Shown: one piece after another, positions 36,839 through 62,924 of the stretch | Layout of the letters: every line of letters begins with the position of its first letter | Position numbering within the stretch: position 1 is the first letter of the stretch | From: Neisseria gonorrhoeae | GTDB lineage: Bacteria > Pseudomonadota > Gammaproteobacteria > Burkholderiales > Neisseriaceae | Direction: 5' to 3' | Length of the DNA stretch: 64,000 nt | NCBI RefSeq assembly: GCF_003315235.1 | Contig: NZ_QNRU01000002.1 | Span: 1-64,000 of the forward strand | The notes under the pieces: model-generated | Told to the model about the DNA's origin: nothing | The model's input: only the letters and a program-made list of their open reading frames with translations | Databases searched by the model: none | Position numbers and translations under genes: made by a program

Positions 36839-38335
36839 TCAAATCTTGCTTTGCGCCACATGGGCAATCAAATCGTTTGCCGCCTGATGCACCACTTCGA
36901 TAAATGCGTTCGGATACAGGCCCATCCCCAAAACAGCAACCGCCAAAACCGCCAGAATCGCAAACTCGCGGCAATTGATGTCTTTCATTTCGGCAACGTG
37001 CGGATTGTGAATCGCGCCGAAAATCACGCGCTTGTACATCCACAGGGTATAAGACGCGCCGTAAATCAGCGTCATAGCCGCCAGCGCGCCCACCCAGAAA
37101 TTCACTTTAACCGCGCCCATAACCACCATAAACTCGCCCACGAAGCCGGAAGTCGCAGGCAGGCCGGCGTTCGCCATACCGAACAACATCATAAACGCCG
37201 CAAACTTGGGCATCACATTGACCACGCCGCCGTAATCGGCAATATTGCGCGTGTGCAGGCGGTCGTACATCACACCGATGCACATAAACATCGCCGCCGA
37301 CACGAAGCCGTGCGAAATCATCTGAATGACCGCGCCTTTCAACGCCCAGTCGTCCAACTGCCCGTCAACAAACAAAAACATCCCAAGCGTTACAAAACCC
37401 ATATGGCTGATGGACGAATACGCCACCAGTTTCTTCATATCGGTTTGCACCAGGGCCACCATACCGATATAAATTACGGCAATCAGGCTCAATACGATGA
37501 TTACGGGGGCAAAATAGCGAGCCGCGTCCGGCATAATCGGCAAGATAAAGCGCAAGAAACCATACGCACCCAGTTTCAGCGTAATTGCCGCCAACACCAT
37601 CGAACCGCCGGTCGGCGCTTCAACGTGGGCATCCGGCAGCCAAGTGTGTACGGGGAACATCGGCACTTTTACGGCAAATGACAGGAAGAACGCTACAAAC
37701 AAAAGCTGTTGTACGCCCAACGGAATCTGTTTGATGTTTTGGAAATCGACAATAGAGAAGCTGCCTGTCTGATAGTACAGGTAAACCATGGCAACCAACA
37801 TCAAGAGCGAACCCGTCAGCGTATAGAGGAACAGCTTGACCGACGCATAGACGCGGCGCGGGCCGCCCCATACACCGATAATCAGGTACAGCGGAATCAG
37901 CATACCCTCGAAGAACACATAAAACAGAATCGCATCCTGCGCGGCAAACGCGCCGTTAATCAAACCCGACATCATCAGGAATGCCGCCATATACTGCGCC
38001 GGACGTTTCTGAATGACTTCCCAACCGGCCAATACCACCAGCAGCGTAATAAACGCATTCAAGATGATAAAGAGCACTGAAATACCGTCCACGCCCAATG
38101 CATAGTTGATTTTCAGAAGCGGAATCCACTCGTGGAACTCGGTAAATTGATAGCCGCCGCTCAAACGGTCGAAACCGGTAAACAGGGGCAACGTTACCAA
38201 GAAACCGGCAAGCGCTCCCATGAAGGCAAGCACACGCGCCAGCGGCGCACGGCTGTCTTTACCGGTCGCCAAAACCAGCACGCCTGCGGCGATGGGTATC
38301 CATATTGCCAAGCTGAGTAGGTAGTTGGAAAACAT
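36839..38335 (-). CDS. nuoM: NADH-quinone oxidoreductase subunit M
   Basis: A 498-residue antiporter-like subunit with NYALGVDGISVLFIILNA, YVFFEGMLIPLYLIIGVWG (key Glu), VPMFPVHTWLPDAHVEAPTGGS and KLVAYSSISHMGFV. The start is the ATG of MFSNYLLSLAIW; the frame is open for 41 codons upstream, into the gap behind the PLD-family gene, without homology. Because an AT-rich gene lies between nuoL and nuoM, its expression depends on readthrough or on a local promoter. Confidence 0.95.
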   Translation of the reverse strand: MFSNYLLSLAIWIPIAAGVLVLATGKDSRAPLARVLAFMGALAGFLVTLPLFTGFDRLSGGYQFTEFHEWIPLLKINYALGVDGISVLFIILNAFITLLVVLAGWEVIQKRPAQYMAAFLMMSGLINGAFAAQDAILFYVFFEGMLIPLYLIIGVWGGPRRVYASVKLFLYTLTGSLLMLVAMVYLYYQTGSFSIVDFQNIKQIPLGVQQLLFVAFFLSFAVKVPMFPVHTWLPDAHVEAPTGGSMVLAAITLKLGAYGFLRFILPIMPDAARYFAPVIIVLSLIAVIYIGMVALVQTDMKKLVAYSSISHMGFVTLGMFLFVDGQLDDWALKGAVIQMISHGFVSAAMFMCIGVMYDRLHTRNIADYGGVVNVMPKFAAFMMLFGMANAGLPATSGFVGEFMVVMGAVKVNFWVGALAAMTLIYGASYTLWMYKRVIFGAIHNPHVAEMKDINCREFAILAVLAVAVLGMGLYPNAFIEVVHQAANDLIAHVAQSKI

Positions 38336-38448
38336 AGTGGTTAACCTGTGGTTAAAATAAAAAATATAGTTGTATGGGTTGGTCTTTACAGACAGCGTTT
38401 TAGGAAGTCGTCTGAAAGAAGGAATGAATACTCTCCCCCCTTCTTTAC

Positions 38449-39612
38449 TTATTCCCAATCAATATCTGTACGATTGCGATATTCTGCCTGTACTAAAACA
38501 TCTAATTCAGCCAAATCTTTTATTTCTGACTGCATAGCTAGTAAAGCTCTTAACTTCATACTTAAATCAATATATTTGGAGCCTTCGCTTGCTCCTTTTG
38601 CAGACTTAAATTTATTTTCTTCTAAAAATTTTTTAATGGGAGCATTTAAAACAGGATATCTATCTGGATATTCTTGACAAAGCATTTCAGAAAAAACTGA
38701 ACCACGAGTGGAAACCCCACATTCTTTTAGCCAATCAATTTGCTTGGCAACCACATTATCTCTCTCAGTAAGTGGAGCATCAAAAACTGATTGGATGGCA
38801 ATGCATAATTTTCTAAAATCTGAAGACTTACCCGTCCTTTTCCACGTTTTATCTTGAAAACGATTGCCTACCCCTTCTCCTTTATTTTCGCTTTTCCAAG
38901 ACCATAATTTATTAAATTCCCCATAAAAATCATTATTGTCTATTTTTCCTGCTGCACATTGCTTAATAAGATTTTTTAATTGATTACACACAGTTTGATG
39001 GTTTCTCATCTGCTTTCTCCGTGCCGCAATCAGTTCTTGATTATAATTTGGCATCTCCATAAATAACTTATCCATCACTGATTGTCTAACAGTTGATTTC
39101 TTATAGTTAATTTCAGCTTCCTGATACTCCTCAAGCCAATCTTCCGATACCGGGATAGATTTCATCGCAATTTCATCAGCCCAAGATTTGACTTTTATAA
39201 AATCCTGCTCGGAAATTTTAGTCAAAATATTTGCTTCATAATTGCTATTAAACGCAGCATGAGTCAAATTTGAAGAACCGATTAAAGCATAATATTCATT
39301 CTTATCATTCTTCCAAAATACAGCTTTAGGATGAAAACCCTGAATGCCTTGAGCTACCATCAGTGTGAATTTCAAATGGGACGGAAGCCATTTCAACACT
39401 TTCCGAATAGCCTCTTTTTTAGACAATCCGAAATCTTGTCCAAAAATAAATTTAAACTCTTGCAATTTGCTATTGAGCTTATTTTTTACATCCCAATGAG
39501 TGAGATACGCAGAGAAAATATACAGCTCTACTGCCTCTGAAACAGCTTTCTCATATATTGAAATCAGTTCCTTCTCATTTGGTGTATCTGAATGTAAAAA
39601 TAACTGTGTCAT
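38449..39612 (-). CDS. PLD-family nuclease-like protein, inserted in the nuo operon
   Basis: A 387-residue protein unrelated to complex I. Residues about 5-180 form one phospholipase D-like half: H94-x-K96 in GFHPKAVFWKND, then GSSNLTHAAF (112-121) and E126. One HKD half implies a dimer, as in Nuc, BfiI and NgoFVII endonucleases. Residues 180-387 are charged and helical, with RNHQTVCNQLKNLIKQCA and a conserved-looking block with SEMLCQEYPDRYPVLNAPI; I do not recognise this domain. Base composition is clearly more AT-rich than nuo. It has its own ribosome binding site (AGAGGAG) and no partner methylase or helicase is beside it. It could be a stand-alone restriction or defence nuclease; a housekeeping role cannot be excluded. 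Confidence 0.7.
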   Translation of the reverse strand: MTQLFLHSDTPNEKELISIYEKAVSEAVELYIFSAYLTHWDVKNKLNSKLQEFKFIFGQDFGLSKKEAIRKVLKWLPSHLKFTLMVAQGIQGFHPKAVFWKNDKNEYYALIGSSNLTHAAFNSNYEANILTKISEQDFIKVKSWADEIAMKSIPVSEDWLEEYQEAEINYKKSTVRQSVMDKLFMEMPNYNQELIAARRKQMRNHQTVCNQLKNLIKQCAAGKIDNNDFYGEFNKLWSWKSENKGEGVGNRFQDKTWKRTGKSSDFRKLCIAIQSVFDAPLTERDNVVAKQIDWLKECGVSTRGSVFSEMLCQEYPDRYPVLNAPIKKFLEENKFKSAKGASEGSKYIDLSMKLRALLAMQSEIKDLAELDVLVQAEYRNRTDIDWE

Positions 39613-39746: not shown

Positions 39747-39786
39747 TTCAGACGACCTCTACAAAACTATGAACAGGTCGTCTGAA
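39747..39786. terminator. Inverted pair of variant DUS (AGGTCGTCTGAA) after nuoL
   Basis: TTTTCAGACGACCT and AGGTCGTCTGAAA face each other across a 16-base loop, ten bases after the nuoL stop. It could attenuate transcription from nuoL into the PLD-family gene and nuoM, although no long T run follows in that direction. Confidence 0.5.
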
Positions 39787-39795
39787 ACTCCGCCT

Positions 39796-41820
39796 TTATC
39801 TGAACAAGCCCCAGAAGGTCATGCCGAGCAAGACCAATACGCCGAACACCATAGCGGCGGCGTAGGTGTAGATAAAGCCGGTTTGGGCTTTGCGTACCTG
39901 AGCGGCAATCGCGCCGACCAGTTTGGCGGAGCCGTTGACGATGCCGTTGTCAATAATGGCGGTATCGCCGACTTTCCAGAAGAAAGTGCCCAATGCGCGC
40001 GTGCCTTTGGCGAAAACGTTGAAATACAGGGCATCGAGGTAGTATTTGTTTTCAAACAAAACGTAAATCGGACGGAACGTCTGTGCGATTTTCGCTGGCA
40101 GGTGCGGCAGTTTGACGTACAAAAGCCACGCGGCGGCAACACCGGCAGCCGCCAAATACAAAACAGGCGATGTCAAGCTGTGCGACACCATCGCCAATGC
40201 GCCGTGGAACTCTTCCTTCATGATGTGCATGGTCGGATGCGCGTCGGCGTTGATAAAAATCACGTCTTTGAAGAAATCGCCGTAAAGCATAGGCTCGATG
40301 GCAACATAGCCGATGATGACGGACGGAATTGCAAGCAGAATCAAAGGCAGGGTAACGACCAGCGGGCTTTCGTGCGGATTGTCGTTTTTGCCCAAGCCGT
40401 GATGTTCTTCACCATGGCCGTCTGAATGGTGTTCGGGCAGGCTGCGCCATTTTTCTTCGCCGTGGAACACCATAAAGTATTGGCGGAACGCGTAAAACGC
40501 GGTAACGAACACGCTGGCGAGGACGGCAAAATAGGCAAAGCCGCTGCCCGGCAGGGTGCTGTATTTGGCTGCTTCGATAATCGAATCTTTGGAATAGAAG
40601 CCTGAGAAGAACGGCGTACCGATCAGCGACAAGTTACCGATCAGCATGGTCAGCCAAGTAATCGGCATGTATTTTTTCAGGTTGCCCATGTGGCGCATGT
40701 CTTGGTCGTGGTGCATACCGATAATCGCGCTACCTGCCGCCAAGAACAGCAAGGCTTTAAAGAAGGCGTGGGTCATGACGTGGAACATCGCCACGGAATA
40801 GGCGGACGCGCCCAGAGCCACGGTCATGTAGCCCAATTGCGACAGGGTAGAATACGCAACCACGCGCTTGATGTCGTTTTGAATCACGCCCAAGAAGCCC
40901 ATAAACAGGGCGGTAATCGCGCCGATAACCATAATGACCGACAGCGCAGTGCTGCTCATTTCGTAAATCGGCGACATACGCGACACCATGAACAGACCCG
41001 CCGTAACCATCGTTGCGGCGTGAATCAATGCGGAAATCGGCGTCGGGCCTTCCATCGAATCGGGCAGCCAGACGTGCAGCGGGAACTGAGCCGATTTACC
41101 CATCGCACCGACAAACAGGAGCAAACAGGTTACGGTAATCAAAGACCATTCCACACCGGGAAACAGTTGGATGGTGGCATTTTGTACGTTGGGCAGATAG
41201 GCGAATACGTCCTGATAGCGCAGGCTGCCGCCGAAATAGGCAAGCACCAAGCCGATACCGAGCAAAAAGCCGAAGTCGCCGACACGGTTGATCAAAAAGG
41301 CTTTCAGGTTGGCAAATGTCGCGCTCGGACGTTTGAAATAGAAACCGATCAAGAGATACGACACCAAGCCCACCGCTTCCCAACCGAAGAAGAGCTGGAT
41401 GAAGTTGTTGCTCATAATCAGCATCAACATGCTGAATGTAAACAAAGAAATATAGCTGAAGAAGCGTTGGTAGCCGACTTTTTCATCGTGCATATAACCG
41501 ATGGTATAGATATGCACCATCAACGACACGCCCGTTACCACGACCATCATCATCGCCGTCATCGTATCGACCAAGAAGCCGACGGAGAAATCCAAACCGC
41601 CCATTGTCAGCCAGGTATAGACGTTTTCGTCAAACTTGGTACGGCTGCCATTGAGGAATCCCCACAGCACATAAGCCGACAGCACGGCAGATACAGCGAC
41701 ACCGAGTATCGTAACCGTATGCGCGCCGGCACGCCCGATTTTGTTGCCGAACAAACCCGCAATCAACGAGCCTGCCAACGGAACAAGGGCAATTATCAAA
41801 TATAAAGTCATATCGTTCAT
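39796..41820 (-). CDS. nuoL: NADH-quinone oxidoreductase subunit L
   Basis: The largest antiporter-like subunit, 674 residues, with DFSVGFLVDTMTAMMMVVV, LFFGWEAVGLVSYLLIGFYF (key Glu), GKSAQFPLHVWLPDSMEGPTPISALIHAATMV and RVVAYSTLSQLGYM, followed by the long lateral-helix region near the C-terminus (YLDALYFNVFAKGTRALG). A His-rich loop (PEHHSDGHGEEHHGLG) lies at about 460-477 and contains a DUS-encoded SDGH. It is two bases from nuoK. Confidence 0.96.
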   Translation of the reverse strand: MNDMTLYLIIALVPLAGSLIAGLFGNKIGRAGAHTVTILGVAVSAVLSAYVLWGFLNGSRTKFDENVYTWLTMGGLDFSVGFLVDTMTAMMMVVVTGVSLMVHIYTIGYMHDEKVGYQRFFSYISLFTFSMLMLIMSNNFIQLFFGWEAVGLVSYLLIGFYFKRPSATFANLKAFLINRVGDFGFLLGIGLVLAYFGGSLRYQDVFAYLPNVQNATIQLFPGVEWSLITVTCLLLFVGAMGKSAQFPLHVWLPDSMEGPTPISALIHAATMVTAGLFMVSRMSPIYEMSSTALSVIMVIGAITALFMGFLGVIQNDIKRVVAYSTLSQLGYMTVALGASAYSVAMFHVMTHAFFKALLFLAAGSAIIGMHHDQDMRHMGNLKKYMPITWLTMLIGNLSLIGTPFFSGFYSKDSIIEAAKYSTLPGSGFAYFAVLASVFVTAFYAFRQYFMVFHGEEKWRSLPEHHSDGHGEEHHGLGKNDNPHESPLVVTLPLILLAIPSVIIGYVAIEPMLYGDFFKDVIFINADAHPTMHIMKEEFHGALAMVSHSLTSPVLYLAAAGVAAAWLLYVKLPHLPAKIAQTFRPIYVLFENKYYLDALYFNVFAKGTRALGTFFWKVGDTAIIDNGIVNGSAKLVGAIAAQVRKAQTGFIYTYAAAMVFGVLVLLGMTFWGLFR

Positions 41821-46708: not shown

Positions 46709-46997
46709 GGTTCGTTCCTAGTTACGGGTATTTGATAAATAATTTTTTATGGAGATCGTCTGAAAAATGGGCTTCAGACGGCCTTTTGAGTTTCATTGAC
46801 AATCAATACTGTTTAAAACGTTTACTGCCACCTTGCCGTCATTCCCGCACAGGCGGGAATCCATTTTTTGAATTTCGGCAACTGCTTTTCAAATATCGGG
46901 TTCTGTAAATTCCACTATGGATTCCCGCCTGTGCGGGAATGACGGCAAAGTTAAATTTTTAGCATTTTGCTTTTAACCAATATAAAACCAACTAAAA
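46709..46997. repeat. Repeat-rich gap downstream of the P-loop fragment (dRS3 pair)
   Basis: There is no gene. A DUS-like inverted repeat lies at about 46753-46784 (GATCGTCTGAA facing TTCAGACGGCCT). Two dRS3 copies in mirrored arrangement at 46841-46860 and 46921-46940, each with a TGCCGTC/GACGGCA extension, enclose 60 bp and could fold into a long hairpin inside the nuo transcript. Confidence 0.75.
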
Positions 46998-47421
46998 CTA
47001 TAACTCATTTATTATATTTTTAAATGACTTAAATAACTCTTTAACAGCACGCTCATTGTCTTCATCTGTAGGCTCAAACTTTTCACACCAATTAATTATA
47101 TTTACATCGCCATGCAATATCCTACTGCATCGCAACTACCACCCCGTGTCCTTGACGTGCCAAAATAAAATCACAATTATGCGAATAAAGTTTGTATAAA
47201 TTTCTCCTAACCTCGTATTCATTATCACCAGATGAATAAAAACCAATCCTCTGACCTTCATGATCAAATACTGCAACAAAATCTAAGCCGTTTCCATATC
47301 TTTCAAAAAAGACTAGAAATTTAGAAAATTTCCGACAAATCTGATTAAAAAGCGTATTGAGTGTCGTACTCTTACCTTTGTTGGCTGCACCGTATAGAAT
47401 AAAAATTTTAGCTTCCACCAT
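46998..47421 (-). pseudogene. Frameshifted small P-loop NTPase gene between nuoF and nuoG
   Basis: From an ATG at 47421 the frame encodes 99 residues: VEAKIFILYGAANKGKSTTLN with a Walker A (GAANKGKST), then FLVFFERYGNGLDFVAVFDHEGQRIGF and RNLYKLYSHNCDFILARQGHG. It stops at 47122. A second frame then reads on coherently to a stop at 46998 (HGDVNIINWCEKFEPTDED, ERAVKELFKSFKNIINEL), so a single-base shift near 47122-47150 probably split a protein of about 140 residues. The start overlaps the nuoF stop (TAATG) with GGAGG in the nuoF end, implying coupling. The gene is AT-rich, unlike nuo. Function unknown; possibly part of a lost two-gene nuclease/NTPase cassette. Confidence 0.65.
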
Positions 47422-48722
47422 TACCACCCTCCCCACTTATGCTCTTTCATCGGCCCGCCGTGTTCGATGTAATGCGCAAACTCATCACGGAAATGCTTGG
47501 TAAAGCTGCGGACAGGGAAGACGGCGGCATCGGCAAGGGCGCAGATGGTGCGGCCTGCCATTTGGTTGCCGACAGAATCCAGCAAATCCAAGTCTTCCAT
47601 GCGGCCTTTGCCTTCTACGATGCGGCGGACGATGCGGTAAAGCCAGCCGGTACCTTCGCGGCAGGGGGTGCATTGGCCGCAGGATTCGTCGTAGTAGAAA
47701 TAGCTTAAGCGTTCGAGGGCTTTGACCATGCACACGTCTTCGTCCATCACGATAATCGCGCCGGAACCGAGCATCGAGCCGGCTTTGGAAATCGAGTCAT
47801 AGTCCATATTGGTCTGCATCATAATGTCGGCAGGCAATACGGGGGCGGACGAACCGCCGGGAATAACGGCTTTGAGTTTTTTACCGCCGCGCATACCGCC
47901 CGCCATTTTCAAGACTTCGGCAAACGGCGTGCCCAACGGCACTTCATAGTTGCCCGGACGCTCGACATGGCCGGAAATACAAAATAATTTGGTACCGCCT
48001 GCATTCGGAATACCTTTATCGGCAAACGCCTGTCCGCCGTCACGGATAATAAACGGGACGGAGGAGAACGTTTCGGTATTGTTGATGGTGGTCGGTTTGC
48101 CGTACAGGCCGAACGAGGCGGGGAACGGCGGTTTGAAGCGCGGCTGGCCTTTTTTGCCTTCCAACGATTCAAGCAATGCGGTTTCTTCGCCGCAAATATA
48201 TGCGCCGTAGCCGTGGTGGGCGAAGAGTTCGAATTCAAAATCCGAACCCAAAATATTTTTACCCAAAAAGCCTGCGGCACGCGCCTGCTCCAAAGCGGCT
48301 TCAAAGCGTTGATAACCTTCGAAAATTTCGCCGTGGATATAGTTGTAGCCGGCTTTCGCGCCCATCGCGTAACCGGCAATGATCATGCCTTCAATCAGGG
48401 CATGAGGATTGAACATGATGATGTCGCGGTCTTTAAATGTACCCGGCTCGCCTTCGTCGGTGTTGCAAACCACATATTTTTCGCCCGGGAAAGAACGGGG
48501 CATAAAGCTCCATTTCAAACCGGTCGGGAAGCCCGCACCGCCGCGCCCGCGCAAGCCGGAGGTTTTGACTTCGTCAATCACATCGGTTTGCGAGATGTTT
48601 TCGGACAGGATTTTACGCAGGGCGGTATAGCCGCCGCGTTTGACGTATTCGTCCAATGTCCAGCAATCGGGATTGGCGGTATCCACTTGGTCAAAAATCA
48701 CGCCTGATTGGTAAATAGCCAT
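47421..48722 (-). CDS. nuoF: NADH-quinone oxidoreductase subunit F
   Basis: A 433-residue NADH-oxidising subunit. The FMN/NADH sites are [20 protein letters not shown] and [20 protein letters not shown]; the 4Fe-4S N3 cluster motif is [12 protein letters not shown] with a later Cys. It passes electrons from NADH via FMN. It is separated from nuoE by 389 bases of repeats, an unusually large gap for this operon. Confidence 0.96.
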
Positions 48723-55034: not shown

Positions 55035-55479
55035 GGGGCCGTCCTGGACAACTAGGATAAACTCGATTTTGCTAATTGTTTTAAAATGGAACAAGAACTT
55101 TTATCTCACTGTTGTTAAAACGCCGTTCGCACTCCTTTAAATACAGCTCAAAATGCTCTTTGGGAATGCCGTCAAACTTGCGTAAATGACGTTTTGCCCG
55201 GTTCCAAAAGTTCCCAATTCCATTAATATGGTTTTGTCGTTCGGCAAAATGTGTGCTGTGATTGATACGGAAATGGCTAAATTCGCCCGCATCCAATACA
55301 TCATAGCGACGATAACAATCCGTATAAACAATGCTGTCAGGCTCTGTTGCTGTTCTTGCAGTTACGCCTGCGACAAACAGTTCAATGAGTTTATTTTGTT
55401 TATACCGGCTTAGACGGCTTTTTCTCATAGGGATAATTCTAACTTAATTTGAATTTCCCTAGTTATCTAGGACAGCCCC
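55035..55479 (-). mobile_element. IS1016 element with internal deletion
   Basis: Terminal inverted repeats are GGGGCCGTCCTGGACAACTA at the left and, on the minus strand, GGGGCTGTCCTAGATAACTA at the right (about 445 bp). An intact copy is about 700 bp. The single transposase frame inside is shortened. Confidence 0.8.
55081..55428 (-). pseudogene. IS1016 transposase (IS1595 family), internally deleted
   Basis: 115 residues. The N-terminus RKSRLSRYKQNKLIELFVAG and the C-terminal part YTDCYRRYDVLDAGEFSHF, FWNRAKRHLRKFDGIPKEHF are those of IS1016 transposase (about 215 residues), but ARTATE joins directly to PDSIVYTD, so the central region including the first catalytic acidic residues (a DGEVEVDES-type motif as I recall it) is missing. 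The deletion is in frame. The product should be inactive but could be mobilised in trans. Confidence 0.8.
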
Positions 55480-62101: not shown

Positions 62102-62314
62102 TCAAACCTCGCCACGCTCTTTTAAAACAGCATAAGCCGCACCTTTCTCCCGTGTGGAATTTTTAAAAAAACCATCACTCTTTACGATTTCATGCAGCTC
62201 CTCACTTGATTTCTCTGCATATTCCATTTTCAACGCCTTATGCTGATTGCCGGCTTCAATCAATCCCTCGCCTACTGCTTTTGCTGCTTTTCCCACACTA
62301 CCCCAAAAACCCAT
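62102..62314 (-). CDS. Small hypothetical protein
   Basis: A 70-residue protein with a hydrophobic, glycine-containing N-terminal helix (MGFWGSVGKAAKAVGEGLIE) and a charged C-terminal half (EYAEKSSEELHEIVKSDGFF, REKGAAYAVLKERGEV). The ATG was chosen for GGAGG eight bases upstream; another ATG two codons before is too close to that site. I do not recognise a family. It lies after the DUF2247 gene with a DUS pair between them. Confidence 0.7.
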   Translation of the reverse strand: MGFWGSVGKAAKAVGEGLIEAGNQHKALKMEYAEKSSEELHEIVKSDGFFKNSTREKGAAYAVLKERGEV

Positions 62315-62400
62315 AATCATGTCCTCCAATCGTTTCAAATAAATAAGGTCGTTGTTTCTGTCAAGAAACAACGACAGTTTATAAACTGTCGGAAAACAAA

Positions 62401-62438
62401 ATGCCGTCTGAACGCCGGATAACGCTTCAGACGGCATC
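62401..62438. terminator. DUS inverted repeat between the DUF2247 gene and the small hypothetical gene
   Basis: ATGCCGTCTGAACG faces CGCTTCAGACGGCAT; the minus strand continues with TTTTG. It is a likely terminator for the DUF2247 gene. Confidence 0.65.
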
Positions 62439-62450
62439 GGATTGCCGGTT

Positions 62451-62924
62451 TTAACCCTGCCCGCCGCCGTTGTTCAAATAGTGTTCCCAGTGAGAATATA
62501 ACCGGGCAATATTTTCTTCATAACTATGATTAGAAGGGATATAGCCGTCTTTGGGCGGCATATACCTGACAAATGATTCTATTTCTTCCGGGTAATCAAA
62601 ATCCGCATAAATTTTTTCAACTTCCCCCAGAGGATCCTCAAATTCTTCTTTTCTATGGAATACGTCATTTAGGAGGATGTACAGCCAATTTTTAGGGGAA
62701 TAACCCCTCGTTTCCGAAGCCAAATCTTCCAGAACAGGCTTTAATTCAAAAATATTGGATTTGTTGGTTAAAGATAGCTTGAACACGCGTTCATCATGAT
62801 CTGAAAGCGTCATTTTTCGGGCATAAGCTGCCACATCAGCCCAACCCAAGTATTTATTCTCATACCCCCACAGAATATCCTTCCAAGAAAGGCGGACTTT
62901 TTGCGCGGTTAAATCAAGGTTCAT
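62451..62924 (-). CDS. DUF2247-like protein, possibly an orphan immunity protein
   Basis: A 157-residue acidic protein: SWKDILWGYENKYLGWADVAAYARKM, then NWLYILLNDVFHRKEEFEDPLGEVEKIYADFDYPEEIESFVRYMPPKDGY and a HSYEENIARLYSHWEHYL tail. This pattern fits DUF2247, seen as immunity proteins in contact-dependent or polymorphic toxin loci. No toxin is adjacent here, so any immunity role is inference. AT content is higher than in the flanking genes. Confidence 0.65.
   Translation of the reverse strand: MNLDLTAQKVRLSWKDILWGYENKYLGWADVAAYARKMTLSDHDERVFKLSLTNKSNIFELKPVLEDLASETRGYSPKNWLYILLNDVFHRKEEFEDPLGEVEKIYADFDYPEEIESFVRYMPPKDGYIPSNHSYEENIARLYSHWEHYLNNGGGQG

Follow-up and report, generated by a model that had tools for sequence, protein, structure and literature searches.

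A putative one-gene restriction nuclease with a glycosylase-like second domain at the nuoL-nuoM cargo site of Neisseria gonorrhoeae

Our best explanation for the gene lodged between nuoL and nuoM of Neisseria gonorrhoeae is that it would encode a one-gene restriction-type defence nuclease, in which a retired glycosylase acts as reader for a phospholipase D (PLD) nuclease and cutting is probably modification-dependent; we put the probability of this explanation as a whole at roughly 0.42. The protein would be a PLD restriction nuclease, an enzyme of a known kind, whose second domain is unexpected and whose gene occupies a site of cargo exchange. The initial annotation, which had read the gene as a stand-alone restriction or anti-phage nuclease using an always-on operon as its home, proved a good lead as to the nuclease, the defence role and the patchy occurrence of the gene, while its family assignment and its idea of the operon hold only in part.

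The gene and its nuclease module

The gene occupies positions 38449-39612 of the window (the whole stretch of 64,000 nucleotides analysed) on the minus strand, a point on which the initial annotation was silent, and forms a single open frame of 387 codons with its ATG at 39612 and its stop at 38449. It is flanked on the same strand by nuoL (39796-41820) and nuoM (36839-38335, ATG at 38335), both of which are conserved in the genus comparison. The frame is intact and as AT-rich as first described, with 34% GC in surroundings of 52-53% (0.34 versus 0.53 for nuoL and 0.52 for nuoM). An identical protein is encoded in NZ_CP119140.1, a record labelled N. gonorrhoeae that matches the window with 99.27% identity over 17 kb and was the only record found by a single-protein plasmid search; this 2.17-Mb record is labelled as a plasmid and looks like a chromosome.

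No methylase adjoins the gene, as had been pointed out, and its immediate neighbours are nuo genes. The lack of a cognate methylase alongside is a feature of type IV restriction enzymes, and the adjoining cognate methylase of the BfiI and NgoAVII systems is missing. Elsewhere, the genome encodes an NgoFVII-like PLD restriction gene that does adjoin a cytosine methylase (L044:970-3128), and this pair is a ready control for the lone PLD gene. Between nuoL and the PLD gene, an inverted pair of GTCGTCTGAA, which we take to be a variant DNA uptake sequence, forms a hairpin (39747-39786, no strand assigned) that is strong (-24.7 kcal/mol, z -5.2) and separates the two genes; a third copy lies on the plus strand between the PLD gene and nuoM (38407-38416). 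A sigma-70-like site was sought on the gene's strand upstream of the PLD gene and was not found.

The PLD nuclease module covers residues 1-165 (39118-39612, minus strand). PF09565, the N-terminal PLD domain of RE_NgoFVII, matches residues 16-155 with 30.5 bits (cut-off 23.8), and the SauUSI fold extends over residues 1-166. The single HxK/GSSN/Glu half-site recognised at the outset was found again: the catalytic HxK in the form HPK (H94-x-K96, 39325-39333), G112-S-S-N115 (39268-39279) and E126 (39235-39237), all on the minus strand, are identical in 20/20 aligned rows, i.e., in the window protein and 19 relatives. In the AlphaFold model of the whole protein, built with 20 sequences (mean pLDDT 83.2, pTM 0.81), the nearest solved fold of the module is the nuclease domain of SauUSI (Z 15.2, rmsd 3.1, 148 aligned), which is also nearest by sequence search (7clg, E 1.5e-11), the single-protein match to 7clg spanning residues 87-170. 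Nuc (Z 12.9, rmsd 2.8, 136 aligned) and NucT (Z 12.1, rmsd 3.2, 136 aligned) follow. The PLD-fold chromatin protein TrmBL2 (Z 11.5) and the lipid-acting PLD enzymes (Z at most 11.0) fall in a range shared with BfiI (Z 11.3, rmsd 3.8, 154 aligned, residues 1-169) and NgoAVII R (Z 11.1, rmsd 4.4, 153 aligned, residues 1-167). SauUSI, Nuc and NucT score above the lipid-acting enzymes, which agrees with the nuclease-type module first proposed, and a placement in a lipid-metabolism PLD family, named then as the outcome that would speak against it, did not appear, the closest fold being that of a restriction nuclease. We consider it very probable that the gene product is a nuclease.

Closer identities were considered and rejected. 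The comparison with DrmC of DISARM failed, because the NCBIfam DrmC model gave only 14.7 bits against its cut-off of 133. The BfiI/NgoFVII-type assignment holds for the PF09565 match, yet the protein is not a whole enzyme of the NgoFVII, NgoAVII or BfiI type, since its second domain consists of helices only and shows no B3-like fold, which is a beta fold. SauUSI itself was rejected because the protein has 387 aa and carries no helicase-like ATPase in its chain. Weak, chance-like matches (PrimPol, BBS2 hairpin and others) were set aside. A type II-style, sequence-specific enzyme, whose second domain reads unmodified sequence and whose host is protected by a distant methylase or by low expression, would suit the PF09565 membership, the methylases present elsewhere in the genome, e.g., beside the NgoFVII-like gene, and the position of some relatives within restriction-modification (RM) loci; we hold it to be unlikely, as the methylase is absent next to the gene here and the second domain is helical and not B3.

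According to the accessible parts of PMC4081073 and PMC7913695, two chains of BfiI or SauUSI form one PLD active site. By analogy with these two enzymes, two chains of the window protein would dimerize via their PLD modules, building one metal-independent active site.

The helical second domain

Behind a low-confidence linker (residues 166-183, 39064-39117, minus strand; pLDDT below 50 at residues 169-182) follows an all-helical second domain (residues 184-387, 38452-39063, minus strand), for which the model, the fold search and the profile comparison point to a likeness to HhH-GPD glycosylases. It had been called unrecognised, and a Pfam scan of the window protein and 19 relatives agrees (best E 0.0056, each family in at most 2/20). 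The structure prediction and remote-homology search suggested for it led to the HhH-GPD-like assignment, with modest statistics. Modelled alone, the domain reached pLDDT 85.9 and pTM 0.84, and it is made of helices only in both models. Among the 50 rows listed by the fold search, the first 28, many of them repeated OGG1 entries, are HhH-GPD DNA glycosylases, and 36 in all belong to this fold, spanning the OGG2, MagIII, OGG1, EndoIII-3 and MutY groups; the best other fold among the same 50 reached Z 3.0. The top match, OGG2 of M. jannaschii (3knt), has Z 7.8 with 155 residues aligned at rmsd 4.0, a value of Z that, by the tool's own caution, is common for unmatched models, helical ones reaching 14. 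The second is the OGG2-type 3n0u (Z 6.8, 156 aligned, rmsd 4.0). Foldseek gave E 0.6 for its glycosylase match, with unrelated chains next in the list.

Profile comparisons add modest support. In a PDB profile search, two unrelated chains (E 0.073 and 0.3) ranked ahead of an 8-oxoguanine glycosylase (E 0.64), whose alignment kept the register of the fold match. Aligned by hhalign with nine PF22175 proteins, which are all those above the family cut-off in the PF22175 scan, the second-domain profile gave E 0.0049 at a probability of 7%; the trimmed-column score of 23.5 was reached by none of 200 column shuffles (at most 22.7), and the reversed profile scored 14.8. A subset of five PF22175 proteins gave E 0.0032 at a probability of 9.9% over 14 columns only, and the full-length profile gave E 0.013. 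The PF22175 scan of the window's genome returned no match. In the hhalign register, Asn323 (38644-38646, minus strand) aligns with an Asp that is invariant in the nine proteins and is the catalytic Asp of these glycosylases; 19 of the 20 rows have Asn at this position and the remaining one has Asp, so the residue expected of an OGG2-type enzyme is lost. The deposited 8-oxoguanine glycosylase chain from the PDB profile search itself has Asn there. The glycosylases also have a catalytic Lys, and near its expected position, in a register set by eye, Arg303 (38704-38706, minus strand) is present in 20/20 rows and residue 304 is Lys in 10/20. The glycosylase match is coherent and statistically modest, each number being weak alone, and we regard it as moderately supported; judged from the models and profiles, a glycosylase fold of the HhH-GPD type, degenerate OGG2, is the rather likely identity of the domain. 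The known readers PUA/SRA, winged helix (wH) and NEco have no Pfam match in the protein; the fold search favours HhH-GPD and excludes nothing.

We hypothesize that this degenerate C-terminal domain binds DNA and probably flips and inspects a base, and that the replacement of the catalytic Asp by Asn would leave it reading the base rather than excising it, so that cutting could follow when a modified or otherwise foreign base is met. That cutting is restricted to modified DNA, with the second domain as reader, is a proposal we hold tentatively and at a little under even odds, because of the lost Asp, the absent methylase and the precedent of the PLD-wH enzymes. Cutting limited to modified or foreign bases would make a protective methylase unneeded and could thus solve the puzzle of self-protection that the initial annotation had raised. 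A broader idea, which we regard as rather doubtful, is a class of modification-dependent enzymes in which a retired OGG2-type glycosylase flips and recognises the modified base and passes the site to the fused PLD nuclease, the reader halves recombining apart from the nuclease half. A search of the open-licence literature for HhH-GPD, phospholipase D and restriction found nothing, though the idea may be in print elsewhere. The HhH-GPD-like fold might also mean that base excision by the second domain persists and is followed by backbone cleavage by the PLD module, and DNA glycosylases of other folds in restriction or defence are described in the accessible parts of the papers on PabI (PMC10273834) and Brig1 (PMC11078745); this coupling is highly improbable in view of the Asn at the Asp position in 19/20 rows.

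The reading of the gene as two separable halves, nuclease and reader, is consistent with its comparison with G029, a genome of another species that has an intact copy of 382 aa, 83% identical, at the same nuoL-nuoM site. DNA identity between the copies is 95-100% over codons 21-160, with 4 silent differences and 1 amino-acid difference, and 67-88% over codons 161-380, with 34 silent differences and 158/218 amino acids identical. The break at codon 161 coincides with the border between the nuclease and the second domain and lies near the linker. The silent sites also differ in codons 161-380, so selection on the protein alone is insufficient, and, as far as the two sequences tell, a recombination exchanging the reader half does explain the mosaic. 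Across the 19 relatives, identity to the window protein is 37-59% in the nuclease half and 25-44% in the second half.

nuoL-nuoM as a site of alternative cargoes

In a sample of 46 genomes of the genus, both nuoL and nuoM were found in 44, and the gap between them measures at least 500 bp in 19/44, 130-499 bp in 3/44 and less than 130 bp in 22/44. The cargoes of the 19 large gaps were identified from frames read by eye, and Pfam and PADLOC served to check examples. The PLD gene stands alone in the window's genome and together with chorismate mutase and cupin genes in G029. Chorismate mutase with cupin fills the gap in six genomes, chorismate mutase alone in one, and both together with an ATPase and a PIN gene in one. 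Two genomes carry ATPase and PIN, one cupin and GmrSD, two a PIN gene accompanied by a small partner (apparently decayed in one of them), one isochorismatase and one DUF559, and in two there are short or AT-rich frames of unassigned kind. Beyond the genus, the same gap holds an ATPase with PIN-like genes (G066, G082) or GmrSD (G003). By comparison, the control gap nuoM-nuoN is 12 bp in 9/9 genomes measured, and among 6 genomes measured for nuoK-nuoL, 5 have 5 bp and G029 (L080) has 819 bp. The nuoL-nuoM gap is a site of alternative cargoes. The presence, absence and swapped alternatives that the initial annotation proposed to look for across Neisseria were thus observed, and the gene, with its foreign composition, sits there in 2/44 genomes, so the opposite outcome, a gene present in all Neisseria with nuo-like composition, was not encountered.

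Two cargoes recur. One, seen in the gap at L006, L014, L020, L026 and L028, consists of a PtuA-like AAA ATPase and, behind it, a PIN-type protein (Pfam confirms both in L006 and the ATPase in L026, the remainder being by eye); the two genes may together form a defence or toxin system. GmrSD-type genes, near-identical by eye, occur in the gap of two genera (L009 and L024, from G027 and G003), L009 being confirmed by Pfam. Within the window, a gap of ~710 bp between nuoG and nuoF (46709-47436) holds a 104-codon frame with 37% GC and, by eye, a P-loop-like motif, and may be a further site of insertion in the nuo operon. Two frames with 41-43% GC lie amid GC-richer DNA at 62102-62924, and a 115-codon frame with 41% GC at 55081-55428 resembles, by eye, a broken transposase.

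Cargo swap at nuoL-nuoM would most likely proceed by transformation and homologous recombination. The GTCGTCTGAA copies border the PLD insert, and the variant is commoner in G029 and its neighbours than in near-empty genomes; such borders fit a transformation-borne exchange and do not prove it. In its final 190 bases nuoL is most similar to G034, G026 and G029 (96-97%, versus 93% in G017 and G022). At its beginning, nuoM shows the greatest similarity to G022 and G017 (97-98%, versus about 90%), but a comparison of nuoL over its whole length gave no clear border. A transfer of the gene from commensal species is only suggested by these sequence similarities.

Relatives and comparison with known systems

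A search of 83 genomes of the bacterial family found matches in four: the window's genome, G029 at the same site, and G021 and G065 with distant proteins elsewhere. In wider samples, 14/399 genomes of the order and 8/369 of the class match, many on the PLD part only. A scan of genome_contigs with alignment queries yielded 22 loci, mostly from Proteobacteria in the old sense. The protein family recurs mostly in Proteobacteria and usually as one gene. The alignment of 20 rows comprises the window protein and 19 of these loci; left out were L100 (a piece of 143 aa only), L101 (single frame not found) and L102 (a 955-aa SauUSI-like protein matching in the PLD module only), L095 was kept though short at its start, and L097 is apparently the same genome as G716, which was part of the query. 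The single-protein query found no relative in genome_contigs, viral_contigs or phage records, and the alignment queries found zero loci in viral_contigs. Two proteins scanned against PHROGs gave nothing at E 0.01 or better, viral structures gave nothing at E 0.001 or better, and a DNA match to the gene was absent from the E. coli genomes.

A defence setting is suggested by the neighbours of the relatives, in line with the restriction or anti-phage role first proposed. PADLOC was applied to 13 of the 19 aligned loci, picked by eye and without a random control, and genes of established systems were found near 4/13: a relative sits between brxC and pglX of BREX (L099), one lies one gene beyond hsdS-hsdR (HsdS, HsdR; L090), one adjoins AbiLi-AbiLii (L084) and one an Mrr-like type IV gene (L087). 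Candidate or partial matches were obtained near 5/13 (L081, L086, L089, L091, L093), weak or doubtful ones near L092 and L094, and none near L085 and L096. The mad2 match of an L094 neighbour (68 bits) was taken, by eye, as a housekeeping RNA methyltransferase. Relatives also look, by eye, like lone inserts after a metH-like gene (L083, L086) or a helicase gene (L094). A second subfamily with a related PLD module, A4, includes a protein of similar length between hsdS and hsdM (L049); A4 aligns with the main family in the PLD part only, and an OGG2 match of its second domain was not found. A more distant PLD-like gene stands, by eye, between helicase-like and methylase-like genes in G104 (L076:7457-8485).

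We consider a role against foreign DNA likely. A nuclease of DNA repair or transformation, outside defence, could account for a second domain that resembles a base-excision repair enzyme and for a host rich in uptake sequences, but its patchy distribution (4/83 family genomes match, 2 at the nuoL-nuoM site) and the relatives in BREX and RM loci make it very unlikely. An abortive-infection nuclease, kept idle and set to degrade host and phage DNA once its second domain has bound a phage signal or damaged DNA, is distinctly unlikely: a lone gene without a methylase, a glycosylase-like domain as a possible damage sensor and relatives beside AbiL-type genes would all suit it, but no recurring partner or signal gene was seen in the neighbourhoods viewed by eye.

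If the preferred reading, a one-gene restriction nuclease with a retired glycosylase as reader, is true, a further reader type would be added to PUA, winged helix and NEco, and a repair fold would have lost its catalytic function and been taken over by a restriction enzyme for sensing. A lone PLD nuclease without a methylase would be explained and the phage DNA it attacks would become predictable. The nuoL-nuoM gap would be a defined spot for the exchange of defence-type genes in Neisseria, at which differences between strains in their intake of phage and DNA could be sought. The site resembles the Neisserial minimal mobile elements, in which, according to the available part of PMC3082526, different whole genes are found within two conserved genes, whereas the nuoL-nuoM cargoes were compared across species.

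The likeness to OGG2-type glycosylases (PF22175; 3knt, 3n0u) lies in a modest fold match along almost all of the second domain and in the C-terminal motif register, but the protein has Asn at the Asp position, no conserved Lys at the probable Lys position, no Pfam match and a fused nuclease. By sequence and by fold alike, the PLD module has its nearest solved counterpart in the type IV enzyme SauUSI (PDB 7clg). In the accessible text of PMC7913695, SauUSI is a chain of 953 aa that includes a helicase-like ATPase and reads through an SRA domain, whereas the window protein is 387 aa long and its second domain is helical. BfiI and NgoAVII R likewise have a PLD module followed by a second domain, which is B3-like in the parts of PMC4081073 and PMC7913695 available, in contrast to the helices-only domain and missing adjoining methylase found here. 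Similar in plan are the PLD-wH enzymes Aba4572I and CbaI, which, in the available portion of PMC11037411, likewise combine a PLD nuclease and a modification sensor in a single chain, some members of the group lying near type I methylases. That paper names PUA, NEco and wH sensors, the terms helix-hairpin and HhH being absent from it, and the sensor of the PLD-wH enzymes is a winged helix, unlike the HhH-GPD-like domain of the window protein.
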